64,000 bases of DNA, taken from NCBI RefSeq assembly GCF_003340565.1, contig NZ_QPLK01000014.1, forward strand, positions 1-64,000, in the 5' to 3' direction. This document shows positions 1,564-13,264 of the stretch, one piece after another. A program made the translations under genes and the position numbers. The notes under the pieces are model-generated. The model was not told the DNA's origin. It was given only the letters and a program-made list of their open reading frames with translations, and did not search any database. Origin of the DNA: Rhodovulum sp. 12E13 (GTDB lineage Bacteria; Pseudomonadota; Alphaproteobacteria; Rhodobacterales; Rhodobacteraceae). Each line of letters begins with the position of its first letter. Positions within the stretch are counted from its first letter, which is position 1.

Positions 1564-5264
<3,701 letters not shown>

Positions 5265-5402: not shown

Positions 5403-7088
<1,686 letters not shown>

Positions 7089-7723
7089 CCTGTTCTCCCT
7101 GTACGGTCCGCGTCGTCCCGGCCGGTGCGCAGAGCGCAGCCGGACGCGGGCGCGGCCGTGCGCGCCCCGTAGATGATTTCGTGTCGTTCGGAACCGGCCC
7201 TTGTGGGCACGCCCGCGGCGCAACCCCTGACCGGTCGCTGGTTCTTGTCTTTGTTGCGCTGCGGGTCACGCAATCGGTGGACCCGAGCGAAAAGACTCGG
7301 ACGCACTAACGCACTTGTCGGGTACGGCGCCCGGCTGGCCTCATGCAAATGCAATCAGAACGACATTTCAATGCCTGTTTGCGACATCGCGTCGCCGAAT
7401 GGGCCAAGGTGTTATTTTCCGGGGCCAATTTCCTGATTTGGTGAGCGTGCCGAAGTGGGGCCGGCGTGCCGCCCGCCCGCGCCAGGGGGCGGGAGCCGCG
7501 GGCATGGGGGGATTCGCCGCCCCCCGGTCTCGTCCGGGCGGCGTCGCTCAGGCCGCGGAGGCCGTTCGAACGCGCGACGCATTCCCGGGAGTCAGCCTGA
7601 CGCGGAGCCCCGGTGGCGTGTCCGGAGACGAAATCATGCAGGGCTGGCAGGATGTTGCGAGGGACGGCTGGGCTCGGCGCCGGTCAGGATCGCGGCGCGG
7701 AGATCCCATATGTCAGCGCAATC
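7089..7723. other. Non-coding divergent region between betaine operon and puc operon
   Basis: No credible gene is seen. It must hold the promoter of the minus-strand betaine/SAM operon. The stretch around 7330-7440 is visibly A+T-richer than its surroundings and is the likeliest promoter zone, but I could not pick out a convincing -35/-10 pair. 7440-7690 is GC-rich with no recognisable signal. Confidence 0.5.
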
Positions 7724-7741
7724 TGTAAACTAAAATTGACA
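7724..7741. promoter_or_regulatory. PpsR/CrtJ-type palindrome 1 upstream of pucB
   Basis: The site fits the TGT-N12-ACA consensus of the photosynthesis repressor PpsR/CrtJ. TTGACA (7736-7741), a perfect -35 hexamer, is embedded in it, so binding would compete with RNA polymerase. A second site lies 8 bp downstream. Confidence 0.75.
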
Positions 7742-7749
7742 GTTGTGAT

Positions 7750-7767
7750 TGTCAACCTAATGTGACA
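7750..7767. promoter_or_regulatory. PpsR/CrtJ-type palindrome 2 upstream of pucB
   Basis: The extended form TGTCA...TGACA fits the PpsR/CrtJ consensus well. It is spaced 8 bp from site 1, the usual arrangement for cooperative tetramer binding, and is followed by TATTAT (7768-7773). The pucB start is 117 bp downstream. It predicts repression of LH2 by oxygen and light. Confidence 0.8.
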
Positions 7768-7883: not shown

Positions 7884-8039
7884 ATGGCAGATGATGACGA
7901 CAAGGTCTGGCCAACCGGCCTGACGCTGGAGCAGGCCGAGGAGGTCCACAGCTATCTCATCGACGGCACGCGGGTGTTCGGGGCCATCGCCCTGCTCGCC
8001 CACCTGCTCGTCGCGGTCTCCACCCCCTGGCTCGGATAA
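7884..8039 (+). CDS. pucB: Light-harvesting LH2 beta subunit
   Basis: This 51-residue inner-membrane antenna apoprotein binds bacteriochlorophyll and carotenoid. The acidic N-terminus is followed by the EEVH motif with His22. His40 in ALLAH is the ligand to the long-wavelength bacteriochlorophyll, and the two histidines have the canonical 18-residue spacing. A single transmembrane helix ends in TPWLG. The ATG at 7884-7886 is preceded by GGAG. It is first in pucBA(C), 12 bases ahead of pucA, under the two PpsR-type sites. Confidence 0.95.
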
Positions 8040-8051
8040 GGGAGGCACGAC

Positions 8052-8402
8052 ATGAACAATGCGAAGATGTGGCTCGTCGTGCCGCCCGCCGTGGGCGTGC
8101 CGGTGTTTCTCGGCGCCGTCGCCGTGGGCTCTTTCGCCGTCCACGTGGCGGTGCTGAGCAACACGTCGTGGGTGTCCGACTTCCTGTCGGGCCAGCCGCT
8201 CGGCTCGGGTGACGCCCAGGCGGCTGCAGTGCTGCCGACGCAGGGCGACGCGGCGACCGCCAAGGCGTCCTACGTCGCGCCGACGCCCGAGGGCGAGAGG
8301 GTCACCGTGATCCTGCCCGACGGCACGACCGCGACGGCGATCCTGCAGGCGCCCGAGGTGCTCGCCTCGGCCGACGACCGCGCAAGGCTCGCCCTCGAGT
8401 GA
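8052..8402 (+). CDS. pucA: Light-harvesting LH2 alpha subunit with LH3-like residues and a long C-terminal tail
   Basis: The first 48 residues align without gaps to LH2 alpha chains: Met1, Lys5, Trp7, Pro12, Gly15, Pro17, His31 (bacteriochlorophyll ligand), Leu35 and Trp40. At positions 44 and 45, where ordinary LH2 (B800-850) has Tyr and Trp or Tyr hydrogen-bonding the acetyl groups, this protein has Phe and Leu, the pair found in Rhodoblastus acidophilus LH3 (B800-820). The total is 116 residues against the usual 50-60, so about 68 residues extend beyond the membrane helix on the periplasmic side. They are rich in Ala, Thr, Asp and Glu with no cysteine. R. sphaeroides puc2A also has a long tail, so this is not an obvious frameshift. 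A GGAGG site precedes the ATG. Confidence 0.93.
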   Translation: MNNAKMWLVVPPAVGVPVFLGAVAVGSFAVHVAVLSNTSWVSDFLSGQPLGSGDAQAAAVLPTQGDAATAKASYVAPTPEGERVTVILPDGTTATAILQAPEVLASADDRARLALE

Positions 8403-8514: not shown

Positions 8515-9933
8515 ATGCTGAACTATCGCCGCTTCGTCCTGAACAGGCTCGCCCGCATCAGCCCCCGCTGGCTGCCCTTCGCCGACGTCGCGACCGACGA
8601 GGTGCCGCTGTCGCGCCTGCTGCGCCTCTCGCTCTTTCAGGTCACCGTGGGCATGGCACTGGTGCTGCTGGTCGGCACGCTGAACCGCGTGATGATCGTC
8701 GAGCTCGACGTGCCCGCCTCGCTGGTCGCCGGAATGCTGGCGCTGCCGCTCGTCTTCGCGCCCTTCCGCACGCTGATCGGCTTCCGCTCCGACACGCATG
8801 TCTCGGCGCTCGGCTGGCGCCGCGTGCCCTACATCTGGAAGGGGACGCTGCTGCAATTCGGCGGCTTCGCCATCATGCCCTTCGCGCTTCTGGTGCTGTC
8901 GGGCTACGGCGAGGCGGTCGACGCGCCGCGCTGGATCGGCCTGTCTTCGGCCGCGCTCGCCTTCCTGCTCGTGGGGGCGGGCCTGCACACGGTGCAGACC
9001 GTGGGCCTTGCGCTCGCAACCGATCTCGTGGCCGAGGAGGACCAGCCCAAGGTGGTCGGCCTGATGTATGTCATGCTGCTGCTCGGCATGGTCGCGAGCG
9101 CGCTCGTCTTCGGCGCGCTTCTGGAGAACTACACGCCCGGCCGCCTCGTGCAGGTGATCCAGGGCGCCGCCGTCACGACCGTCGCGCTCAACATCCTCGC
9201 GATGTGGAAGCAGGAATCGCGCTCGTGGGCGCGGGCGCAGGCCCGAAAGCCAGACCGCGACTTCACCCGCGCCTGGCGCGCCTTTACCGGCCGGCCCGGC
9301 GCTCTGATGCTGCTCGGCGCGATCGGGCTCGGCACCTTCGGCTACGGCATGGCCGACGTGCTGCTCGAGCCCTATGGCGGGCAGGCGCTGGGCCTGACCG
9401 TGGCGCAAACGACCAAGCTGACCGCCGTACTCGCCTCCGGCACGCTGGCGGGCTTCGCCATCGCCTCCAAGGTGCTCTCCGGGCCCGCGCGCGCGACCTC
9501 GGTCGCGCTCTGGGGCGCGGCGATAGGGGTGCCGGGCTTCGCCGCGATCATCCTGTCCTCGGCGGCGGTGGGGCCCATGCTCTTCGTTGCGGGCACCTTC
9601 GCCACGGGCCTCGGCGCCGGCCTGTTCGGCCACGCCACGCTCACCGCGACCATGCGCGCCGCCCCGGCCGAGCAGGTGGGCCTCGCGCTCGGCGCCTGGG
9701 GCGCTGTGCAGGCCACGGCCGCCGGCATCGGCGTGGCGCTCGGCGGCGTTGTCCGCGACGTGCTGGTCGGCCTGCCCGGGCGTGACGGCGCCGCGGCCGA
9801 CCCGGCCTTGCCCTACAATGCCGTCTTCGGCATCGAGATGTTGTTCCTCGTTCTCGCCGTCGTCGCGCTGCTTGCCCTGCAGCGGACGGCCGCGCACGAC
9901 GCCCCCGACCCCGAACGCCTGGAGGTAGCATGA
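8515..9933 (+). CDS. pucC: PucC-type LH2 assembly / bacteriochlorophyll delivery protein (MFS fold)
   Basis: This 472-residue polytopic membrane protein is of the PucC/LhaA/Bch2 family, which is needed for assembly of the light-harvesting complex and is thought to deliver bacteriochlorophyll to nascent antenna chains. About 12 transmembrane segments are visible. The N-terminal leader LNYRRFVLNRLARISPRWLP and the FAPFRTLIGFRSDTHVSALG loop are typical of the family. It lies 112 bases behind pucA across a stem-loop. Its stop overlaps the start of the next gene as ATGA, so that product is made in proportion to PucC. Confidence 0.93.
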   Translation: MLNYRRFVLNRLARISPRWLPFADVATDEVPLSRLLRLSLFQVTVGMALVLLVGTLNRVMIVELDVPASLVAGMLALPLVFAPFRTLIGFRSDTHVSALGWRRVPYIWKGTLLQFGGFAIMPFALLVLSGYGEAVDAPRWIGLSSAALAFLLVGAGLHTVQTVGLALATDLVAEEDQPKVVGLMYVMLLLGMVASALVFGALLENYTPGRLVQVIQGAAVTTVALNILAMWKQESRSWARAQARKPDRDFTRAWRAFTGRPGALMLLGAIGLGTFGYGMADVLLEPYGGQALGLTVAQTTKLTAVLASGTLAGFAIASKVLSGPARATSVALWGAAIGVPGFAAIILSSAAVGPMLFVAGTFATGLGAGLFGHATLTATMRAAPAEQVGLALGAWGAVQATAAGIGVALGGVVRDVLVGLPGRDGAAADPALPYNAVFGIEMLFLVLAVVALLALQRTAAHDAPDPERLEVA

Positions 9934-10556
9934 CCACCATCATCACGCGGCTCTACGCCGACAGAAAGGCGGCGCGCGCCGTCCGCAAGAAACTGCTGAA
10001 GCAGAAGTTCCGCGAGGCCGATGTCGACCTGATCGCGGCGAAGGAGGGCGACGACGCCGCCCGCATCGAGGCCGCGCTGGAACGCGCGATGGCCCACGAG
10101 AGCGCGGCCAAGGCCTATGCCAGGCCGATCGCCGAGGGCGGCGCGGCGCTGGTCGTGCGGGCCGATTACCGTCCGCTCGGCGCCCGTCGCATCGCGCGCG
10201 AGATTCTCGCCGACAGCGGGGCGGTCGATGCCGGCGGCGCGGTCGAGGATCGCGATGTCAAGCTGCCGCCGAAGCCCGCGTACGAGACGCTGTTCCCGAA
10301 GGTGCTGAAGGACCATCCGCTGTTCTTTCGCATCGACAGCGATCCCGGATCGGGGCGCGAGCCGCAGACCTTCTCCGAGCTCACCGGCATTCCGCCGCTC
10401 ACGAACTGGCGCCCCGGCGGCCAGCGGCTGACCGAGCGGCCCGGCCCGATCCTGCCGTTCAAGACGATCGACGACCGCCCGCGCAAGAAGTCGGTGCTCG
10501 AGGACCATCCTCGTTTCTCCGAGCGCTTCGGCGTGGCGACGATCAAGCACCGCTGA
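9930..10556 (+). CDS. Uncharacterised protein translationally coupled to pucC
   Basis: I do not recognise this 208-residue soluble protein. Residues 1-95 (start TTIITRLYADRKAARAVRKK, later GGAALVVRADYRPLGARRIA) resemble the small alpha/beta domain of general stress protein 17M-like proteins. The C-terminal half is basic and proline-rich, with repeated short motifs such as DHPLFFRIDSDPG, NWRPGG and EDHPRFSERFG. There is no signal peptide or membrane segment. The ATG (9930-9932) overlaps the pucC stop (ATGA) and has its own GGAGG. The coupling and lack of another promoter imply a role in LH2 assembly, stability or pigment handling, by analogy with PucD/PucE of Rhodobacter capsulatus, which I cannot claim as homologues. 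Confidence 0.8.
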   Translation: MTTIITRLYADRKAARAVRKKLLKQKFREADVDLIAAKEGDDAARIEAALERAMAHESAAKAYARPIAEGGAALVVRADYRPLGARRIAREILADSGAVDAGGAVEDRDVKLPPKPAYETLFPKVLKDHPLFFRIDSDPGSGREPQTFSELTGIPPLTNWRPGGQRLTERPGPILPFKTIDDRPRKKSVLEDHPRFSERFGVATIKHR

Positions 10557-10798: not shown

Positions 10799-12997
10799 CT
10801 ACCCGAGCAGGGCGCGGGCCGTCCGCACGATGCCGTCGGTCGAAGGTAGAGTCGCGGCGTGGGCCGGCCCCGTGGCGATGAAGCTGTCCTCGGCCGTCAG
10901 CCGCGCGACGGGCAGCCCCGGCGATCGCTCGGCCATGAGCGCCACCAGCCCCTCGGCCACCCCGCCCGACCGCCGCGTCTCGTCGACGATCAGCGCCGCG
11001 CCGCAGCCCGAGAGCGCGTCGAGCAGCGACGCCTCGGGCAGTGGCGCGAGCCAGCGCAGGTCGATCACCCGCGCCGCCACCCCCTCGTCCGCCAGGCGGG
11101 TCTGCGCCTGCCGGCAGAGGCGATGGCCGTTGCCATAGGTCACGAGCGCCAGGTCGCGGCCCTCGCCGTGCACACCCACCGCGCCGAGGGGCAGCCGCTC
11201 GGGCGGGGCGGGGTAGGGCGTGGCCCACCTGCCGTCGCCCTCGGTGTCGAGGTCGCGCATCGGGTAGAGCGCGATCGGCTCGAGAAAGACGCTGACCCGC
11301 TGTTCCTCCCGCGCGAGCCGCACGCATTCGCGCAGCATCCGCGCGGCGTCCTGCCCCGTCGAGGGGCAGGCCAGGATCAGGCCCGGAATGTCGCGCAGCA
11401 CCGCGAGCGCATTGTCGTTGTGGAAATGCCCTCCGAAGCCCTTCTGGTAGCCGAGCCCGGCGATGCGCACGACCATCGGATTGGCGAACTGGCCGTTCGA
11501 GAAGAAGGGCAGGGTGGCCGCTTCGCCGCGCAGCTGGTCCTCGGCGTTGTGCAGGTAGGCGAGAAACTGGATCTCGGGGATCGGCACGAACCCGTTATGC
11601 GCCATGCCGAGCGCGAGGCCGAGGATCGACTGCTCGTCGAGCAGCGTGTCGATCACCCGGTCGCGGCCGAACCGCTTCTGCAGGCCGCGCGTCGCGCCGT
11701 AGACGCCGCCCTTGGCGCCCACGTCCTCGCCCATCACGACGATCTCGGGATGCTCCAGCATCAGGTCGGCAAGCGCCCAGGCGACGTGGCGCACCATGGG
11801 CTGGGGCGCCGCCATCTGCTCGGCCTCGGCGCCGAAGGTGGCGGCCCGCGCCGCGGGGTCGGGGCCGTTCGAGGGCCGGCAGGGGCGCGGCGGCGGGATC
11901 AGCGAGGCCATCACCTCGCCCGCATCGCGCAGGTGCGGGCGGCGGCCGGCCTCTTCCGCCTTAGCGGCCACCTCGGCGCAGGCCGCGTCGTAGATCGCGA
12001 GCGCCGCGTCGGGCGCGAGCGCCCCCGCCTCGGCCAGCAGGCGGACGGAGTGCAGCAGCGGGTCGTTCGCCTCGTCCGCCTCGACCTCGGCGCGCGAGAG
12101 GTAGGCGGTCGGCACGTCGGCCCCGGCGTGGCCGTAGAGCCGCACTGTGCGCAGATGCAGGAAGACGGGCCGCCGGCGCGCCCGCACCCACTCGGCCGCC
12201 TCGCGCGCCGCGCGATAGGTATCGTAAAGGTCGAGCCCGTCGGCCGCGACGTAGCGCAGGCCGGGGCGGGAGGAGAACGCCGCCTCGATCCAGCCCGGCG
12301 GCGTCTTCACCGAGATGCCGATACCGTTGTCCTCGCAGACGAGCAGCAGCGGCATCGCTCCGCCCTGAAAGGCAGTCCAGCAGGCGGCGTTGATCGCGCC
12401 CAGCGCGGTGGAATGGTTCGCCGAGGCATCGCCGAACGAGGCCATCACCAGCGCGTCGTCGGCCAGCGCCGCGTGCTCGGGCCGGTGCCGCCGCGCCGCG
12501 CCGACCGCGTAGGCCGCGCCCATCGCCTTGGGCAGGTGGCTCGCGATGGTCGAGGTCTGCGGCGGGATCGTGAGCGCCTTCGAGCCCAGCACCTTGTGAC
12601 GGCCGCCCGAGATCGGATCGTCGGCCGCGCAGGCGAAGGAGAGCAGGATGTCCCGCGCCGGGTCCTGCCCCGCCACCTGCGCGGCGCGGGCGATCTGGAA
12701 TGCGGCGTCGCGGTAATGCAGGAACGCCATGTCGGTCGGGCGCAGGGCGTGGGCCACCGCCGCCATCCCCTCATGCCCCGACGAGCCGATCGTGTAGAAG
12801 CCGGTGCCGGCACGCTGCATCGCCCGCCCCTGCCGGTCGAGCGCGCGGCACAGGCACTGGGCGCGGAAAAGCGAAACGGCCTCGCCGGCCGAGAGCGGCG
12901 CCGCTGCCGCCCGGCCGGGCGGCAGGTCGCCCGCCGCCACCCGCGCACGGAACATCGCGTGCACGATCTCGGCCCGGTCCGCCTGCGCTCCGTCCAT
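10799..12997 (-). CDS. Fused alpha-beta E1 component of a thiamine-dependent 2-oxoacid dehydrogenase
   Basis: The 732 residues join an E1-alpha-like half (about 1-400) and an E1-beta-like half (about 415-732) of the branched-chain 2-oxoacid/acetoin dehydrogenase type. The thiamine diphosphate motif is GDASANHST...CEDNG near residues 200-235. The beta half has VMGEDVGAKGGVYGATRGL, PEIQFLAY and VTYGNGHRLC. The ATG at 12995-12997 has a strong GGGAGG upstream; longer reading frames add only low-complexity sequence. No E2 or E3 gene adjoins it, so it must use a lipoyl acyltransferase and E3 from elsewhere (lpdA is at 44718). The substrate is not clear. It converges on the puc operon with 242 bases between. 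Confidence 0.85.
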   Translation of the reverse strand: MDGAQADRAEIVHAMFRARVAAGDLPPGRAAAAPLSAGEAVSLFRAQCLCRALDRQGRAMQRAGTGFYTIGSSGHEGMAAVAHALRPTDMAFLHYRDAAFQIARAAQVAGQDPARDILLSFACAADDPISGGRHKVLGSKALTIPPQTSTIASHLPKAMGAAYAVGAARRHRPEHAALADDALVMASFGDASANHSTALGAINAACWTAFQGGAMPLLLVCEDNGIGISVKTPPGWIEAAFSSRPGLRYVAADGLDLYDTYRAAREAAEWVRARRRPVFLHLRTVRLYGHAGADVPTAYLSRAEVEADEANDPLLHSVRLLAEAGALAPDAALAIYDAACAEVAAKAEEAGRRPHLRDAGEVMASLIPPPRPCRPSNGPDPAARAATFGAEAEQMAAPQPMVRHVAWALADLMLEHPEIVVMGEDVGAKGGVYGATRGLQKRFGRDRVIDTLLDEQSILGLALGMAHNGFVPIPEIQFLAYLHNAEDQLRGEAATLPFFSNGQFANPMVVRIAGLGYQKGFGGHFHNDNALAVLRDIPGLILACPSTGQDAARMLRECVRLAREEQRVSVFLEPIALYPMRDLDTEGDGRWATPYPAPPERLPLGAVGVHGEGRDLALVTYGNGHRLCRQAQTRLADEGVAARVIDLRWLAPLPEASLLDALSGCGAALIVDETRRSGGVAEGLVALMAERSPGLPVARLTAEDSFIATGPAHAATLPSTDGIVRTARALLG

Positions 12998-13193
12998 GCC
13001 CCCCCTCCCGTTCCGGCCCGGTCTCGCGGGTGCGCCTCCCTTGCGCGCCCCGAAGCCGGCGTCAAGCAACCCTCGTCCCGCGCCCATGGCCGGCGGCCTG
13101 CAGGGGCACCCGGTGCCCGCACCCGCCGCTCCCGCCGCGCCCGCCCGGCCTGACCGGCGCGCAGGCGGCCGTCTGCCGCGCGCCGCGCCCCGC

Positions 13194-13215
13194 TTCTTTC
13201 TGGTCCAAATACGCA
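13194..13215 (-). repeat. Partial copy (E) of the intergenic hairpin repeat
   Basis: Read on the minus strand this has a GCGTATTTGGACCAGAAAGAAG-like tail related to the ends of copies A-D, without the flanking G-C hairpins. It lies just after the stop of the hydroxyacid dehydrogenase gene, the same kind of site as other copies. Confidence 0.45.
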
Positions 13216-13264
13216 TGCGACGTCGCCTCCGCGATCCTGCGGGGGGCGGCGGCGCGCAGCCGCG

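Follow-up and report, generated by a model that had tools for sequence, protein, structure and literature searches.

A pucBAC operon of Rhodovulum sp. 12E13 with the F44L45 motif probably encodes a single-peak peripheral antenna

The DNA analysed here (hereafter the window, a stretch of 64,000 nucleotides from Rhodovulum sp. 12E13) contains an ordinary pucBAC operon for a peripheral light-harvesting antenna, from a phototroph of the Rhodobacteraceae close to Rhodobacteraceae bacterium HLUCCA09. We consider it probable, at roughly 75%, that this antenna is a monomodal LH2 (LH4 or High-800 type) with one merged absorption peak at ~804-806 nm. Sequence, operon structure, gene copy number and conservation across the family were established directly, whereas ring assembly, pigment geometry, the position of the peak and repression by PpsR are inferred. 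A preliminary description had pointed out the Phe44/Leu45 pair of the alpha chain and had expected a blue-shifted antenna by analogy with the LH3 of Rhodoblastus acidophilus. The observation is true and the expected direction is right, but the analogy with LH3 is imperfect and the motif had already been described.

All genes of the operon lie on the forward strand. The gene pucB (7884-8039) encodes an LH2 beta chain of 51 amino acids (PF00556, E = 2.9e-10), for which the best matches in the PDB were 7zdi_B (E = 9e-20) and 7pbw_BA. It is followed by a ribosome site (GGGAGG, 8040-8045) and by pucA (8052-8402), which starts with ATG and encodes an LH2 alpha chain of 116 amino acids (PF00556, LHC, E = 3.5e-11). 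Residues 1-48 of PucA (8052-8195) form the LH2 alpha core, as indicated by PF00556, by an ungapped match to 1ijd_A and by the family alignment. The remaining residues 49-116 and the stop codon (8196-8402) form a C-terminal extension, recognized by family conservation, predicted strands and omega values. Further downstream, pucC (8515-9933) encodes an LH2 assembly protein of 472 amino acids (PF03209, E = 3.4e-148), and its stop codon is overlapped by a gene for 208 amino acids (9930-10556), which tblastn showed to be conserved after pucC. The match of both chains to PF00556, the adjoining pucC and the location of pufBA elsewhere identify the gene pair as the pucBA of an LH2. The product of pucB (7884-8039) also matched the NCBIfam model NF040862 (LH1 beta, pufB) above its cut-off, so that automatic annotation may label pucB as an LH1 gene. 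We rejected this label, since the best PDB matches were LH2 beta chains and pufBA lies elsewhere.

A search of the genome assembly yielded four LHC matches, consisting of pucBA on contig C34 and pufBA on contig C62, where pufBA adjoins two reaction-centre genes. Further copies of pucBA, for which the preliminary description had recommended a search, were not found in this assembly, which was scored as 100% complete, and a search of the plasmid collection for PucA gave no match. A single pucBA agrees with an exclusive peripheral antenna of the LH4 type. Given the completeness of the genome, it also implies that the operon, if expressed, sets the only LH2 spectrum, and that the PucBA antenna cannot be exchanged for another LH2.

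Residues 1-47 of PucA gave an ungapped alignment with 1ijd_A, the alpha chain of LH3 (E = 9.8e-13), with the segment TSWVSDFLSG of PucA opposite TTWYAAFLQG of 1ijd_A. Position 44 is Phe (TTC, 8181-8183) and position 45 is Leu (CTG, 8184-8186); the two usual hydrogen-bond donors to the C3-acetyl groups are thus absent, and a blue shift is to be expected. Position 41 is Val (codon 8172-8174), which leaves PucA with no C3-acetyl donor at positions 41, 44 and 45, in line with the LH4/High-800 type. The same holds for F44L45 itself, as this is the motif named for the roseobacter LH4. The chain further carries His31 (codon 8142-8144), which was invariant among the aligned PucA chains, as well as Gly26 and Ser27 (codon 8130-8132). 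Work by Duquesne from 2011 on the origin of the High-800 LH2 is said to tie the spectrum to the environment of the C13 keto group and to a serine of the alpha chain. Compared with LH3 (B800-820), PucA shares Phe44 and Leu45, but has Val41 instead of Tyr41. The PucD-type LH4 of Rhodopseudomonas is defined by M26, F44 and M45 (PMC5069747 Table 2), whereas PucA reads G26, F44 and L45, and Gly at the position of the M26 marker counts against the LH4 reading.

In a comparison of nine LH2 structures, complexes absorb at ~850 nm when both B850 C3-acetyl groups are hydrogen-bonded, at ~825 nm when one is bonded, and at 803 nm when none is bonded (PMC9618040). LH3 keeps one C3-acetyl bond, donated by alpha-Tyr41, and absorbs at ~820 nm, and the PucD-LH2 of Rhodopseudomonas palustris, which lacks the B850 hydrogen bonds, has a single peak at 803 nm (PMC9618040). 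According to our alignment, the alpha chain of PucD-LH2 (7ze3) reads TTWVAKFMNG, i.e. V41/F44/M45. Because PucA has Val41 where LH3 has its Tyr41 bond, PucD-LH2 is the better template. Both PucD-LH2 (7ZE3) and the window PucA have Val41, Phe44 and no donor at positions 41, 44 and 45. They differ in that PucD-LH2 has Met45 and Met26 instead of Leu45 and Gly26, is made in low light beside other LH2 genes whereas the window pucBA is the only copy, and has a short alpha C terminus (59 versus 116 amino acids). The LH3 of Rhodoblastus acidophilus 7050 (1IJD) has Phe44 and Leu45 in common with PucA and aligns over residues 1-47, but its Tyr41 makes one C3-acetyl bond, and it is a low-light form of 53 amino acids without the long C-terminal extension.

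According to a 2025 review, Roseobacter denitrificans, R. litoralis, Dinoroseobacter shibae and others use a monomodal LH4 as exclusive peripheral antenna and have F44L45 in common; the peak lies at 804 nm for D. shibae and at 806 nm for both R. litoralis and R. mahoneyensis (PMC12654162). The window antenna resembles this roseobacter LH4 in its F44L45, in being the sole, constitutive peripheral antenna, and in belonging to the same family. The likeness to the strains with measured spectra runs via the named motif. The preliminary description had also mentioned a B800-806-like antenna, and this alternative turned out to be the better supported one, given Val41 as in PucD-LH2 (803 nm) and the 804-806 nm of the roseobacter LH4. 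Counted against a single peak is Roseicyclus elongatus, an aerobic phototroph of the same group compared by its spectrum alone, which absorbs at 802 nm with an 850-nm shoulder (PMC12654162).

In the mechanism that we propose, the alpha and beta chains would assemble into an LH2 ring that holds both rings of bacteriochlorophyll. With no donor at alpha positions 41, 44 and 45, the C3-acetyl groups of the B850-type bacteriochlorophylls would presumably not be held in plane, and the B850-type Qy band would rise in energy and merge with the B800 band into a single peak near 804-806 nm. Such a band would overlap poorly with the ~868-nm core antenna of aerobic phototrophs. Rhodovulum sulfidophilum is a possible counterexample to the rule that connects the motif with a blue shift.

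The F44/L45 pair alone is insufficient to choose between 804 and 826 nm, because the R. sphaeroides double mutant at positions 44 and 45 is a B800-826 complex in which Ser27 still bonds (PMC9618040), and because F44/M45 is found in LH3 and LH4 of Rhodopseudomonas alike (PMC5069747). The window antenna could accordingly be an LH3-like complex with two bands, at ~800 and 820-826 nm, if losing the bonds at 44 and 45 shifts absorption only so far; PucA has the same F44/L45 pair as 1ijd and, like the mutant, Ser27. We consider this unlikely, since the 820-nm band of LH3 is due to alpha-Tyr41 (PMC9618040), which is Val in PucA, and roseobacters reported with F44L45 peak at 804-806 nm (PMC12654162). 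The proposed analogy with LH3 thus holds for the shared pair but fails at position 41, where PucD-LH2 and the roseobacter LH4 are closer.

Far less probable still is a normal B800-850 LH2 in which the missing bonds are made up for elsewhere, for example by Ser27 or by a beta-chain donor. The Ser27 of R. sphaeroides does bond the C13 keto group of beta-B850, but the C3-acetyl group takes no part in this bond, and replacement of Ser27 by Ala left B850 absorption unaffected (PMC9618040). Similarly, a Trp of the beta chain bonds the acetyl group in Phaeospirillum molischianum and Marichromatium purpuratum (PMC9618040), but the C-terminal part of the window beta chain (AVSTPWLG) is of the R. sphaeroides type, without such a bond, and relatives with the motif are blue-shifted (PMC12654162).

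PucC of the window is 97% identical to that of HLUCCA09, which belongs to the Hot Lake unicyanobacterial consortia and is reported to carry the genes for making bacteriochlorophyll a and for assembling the photosystem (PMC5468372). The pucA of HLUCCA09 (locus L005, about 4540-4890; also L088, a same-genus genome that seems to be the same assembly) lacks one base in codon 13, within a GC-rich stretch. This deletion is probably an assembly error, because the protein 3' of the deletion is nearly identical to the window PucA. A decaying or silent operon that makes no antenna, as the deletion in this close relative and the missing peripheral antenna peak of several related aerobic phototrophs (PMC12654162) might suggest, is equally improbable as a normal B800-850 LH2, since the window pucA is intact, differs from that of HLUCCA09 by 12 silent and only 4 replacement codons, and retains operator-like sites upstream of the operon.

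Returning to the F44L45 motif of the LH4 reading, F44/L45 was present in 66 of the 80 PucC-linked PucA proteins, all 66 of which also have S27 and V41. On the PucC tree, 93 of the 108 Rhodobacteraceae loci read V41/F44/L45. When 296 genomes from across the family were sampled, PucA was matched in 38 of them; the 38 readable chains from this sample comprised 30 with V41/F44/L45, five with Y44/Y45 and three with Y41/Y44/L45. The PucC-linked set, the 296-genome sample and the 108-row tree overlap and their rows are related by descent, so that what is counted is a trait shared within the family rather than independent events. Named Roseobacter loci (L012, L020 and L032) combine V41/F44/L45 with the C-terminal extension, and the PucA of Rhodobacter capsulatus and R. 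viridis has Y44/W45. Given its frequency among the 80 proteins and the 108 rows, the pair in the window PucA is not due to chance. The trait highlighted by the preliminary description is therefore real but not unusual: F44/L45 is the norm in Rhodobacteraceae, and neither unusual nor new, as the motif had already been named (PMC12654162). Hence, roseobacter-type Rhodobacteraceae carry the blue-shifted residue pair by default, and it is no reason to flag a locus as an oddity. Beyond that description lie Val41, Ser27, the extension at residues 49-116 and the status of the pair as a family norm.

Tyr41 occurred in five rows of the PucC tree, each of which also has Tyr44, with at least five changes for Tyr41 and at least eight for Tyr44. 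An independent-pairs test of positions 41 and 44 gave 3-4 informative pairs, all in one direction and none opposed (p = 0.125-0.25, too few for significance). In Marivita, close species have either SNTSWVADFLSGQ or SKVDWYNNYLVGE in PucA. The latter segment is found in L030 (3471-3785), L052 (PucA at 4574) and L063 (PucA at 2294), which sit among near neighbours with V41/F44 (L049, L054, L061 and L062 were the neighbours compared). As a lead only, this pattern suggests repeated joint switching from Val/Phe to Tyr/Tyr, or else local recombination. In Marivita, the change may naturally toggle the antenna between a blue-shifted and a red form, or again reflect local recombination. Close Marivita with V41/F44 or Y41/Y44 would provide a natural experiment on hydrogen-bond tuning.

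The C-terminal extension of PucA comprises 68 residues past residue 48 (49-116; 8196-8399) with a conserved VTVILPDGT-type motif. A loose form of this motif was present in 76 of 80 chains, and missing from three short Rhodobacter chains and from L022. Omega of the extension was 0.03-0.18 in most close pairs; distant pairs gave higher, unreliable values, and the median of all pairs used was 0.58 for the extension and 0.09 for the core. The extension is apparently under purifying selection. AlphaFold2, run on 42 sequences, returned a mean pLDDT of 75.9 and a pTM of 0.34, a low value that leaves the placement of the extension undefined. Three strands were predicted with moderate confidence (71-78, 81-87 and 93-98; block pLDDT 73-84). 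Matching LH2 alpha chains in the PDB have lengths of 48-71 residues. A search of the PDB with the extension profile yielded no convincing relative (best E = 0.017, a designed protein over 11 positions), and Foldseek with the predicted structure returned no match with an E value of 0.001 or lower. Short Foldseek matches to MOP-like beta hairpins were discounted as relatives, and homology to the Puc2A-like extension of L127 was not supported, as the extension profile search gave no match. Like the window PucA, the alpha chains of Rubrivivax gelatinosus, PucAb and PucAc of Rhodopseudomonas and Puc2A of R. sphaeroides have extra residues past the alpha core; those of Rhodopseudomonas are Pro/Ala-rich, whereas the roseobacter extension is marked by a conserved motif of its own. 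By analogy with Rubrivivax, the extension most likely has a role in assembly or ring packing. More tentatively, and with considerable doubt, we suggest that it might fold into a periplasmic beta domain and remain part of the mature ring, as a crown on every ring that acts in assembly, packing or contact with the core complex. Such a crown, if real, would be a structural element that none of the LH2 alpha chains found in the PDB possesses.

A pattern search detected two TGT-N12-ACA sites upstream of pucB (7724-7741 and 7750-7767, forward strand), a pattern that we take to be the PpsR/CrtJ-type operator. Within 260 nt upstream of pucB, 73 of 78 relatives had at least one such site and 57 of 78 at least two, compared with a background of 0.03 per 260 nt in the remainder of these loci. 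Over the whole window the pattern is not rare (5 found versus 2.65 expected). It is the position upstream of pucB, rather than the window-wide count, that makes the sites telling. The conserved pattern suggests binding and repression by PpsR.

Searches of Pfam and NCBIfam with the product of the 208-amino-acid gene gave no match. Its tblastn relatives were present in 62 of 80 loci and, among the matches listed, directly 3' of pucC; the gene is kept after pucC in Rhodobacter viridis as well. It presumably occupies the place of pucDE in R. capsulatus, and its product is possibly a PucDE/gamma-type protein. On the reverse strand, 5403-7223 encodes a protein of 606 amino acids that contains two methyltransferase domains. 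It may be a glycine/sarcosine N-methyltransferase fusion that serves the synthesis of betaine, which, if true, would suit a hypersaline habitat. Also on the reverse strand, a single open reading frame (10799-13216) fuses the alpha and beta parts of an E1 dehydrogenase (PF00676, PF02779 and PF02780).
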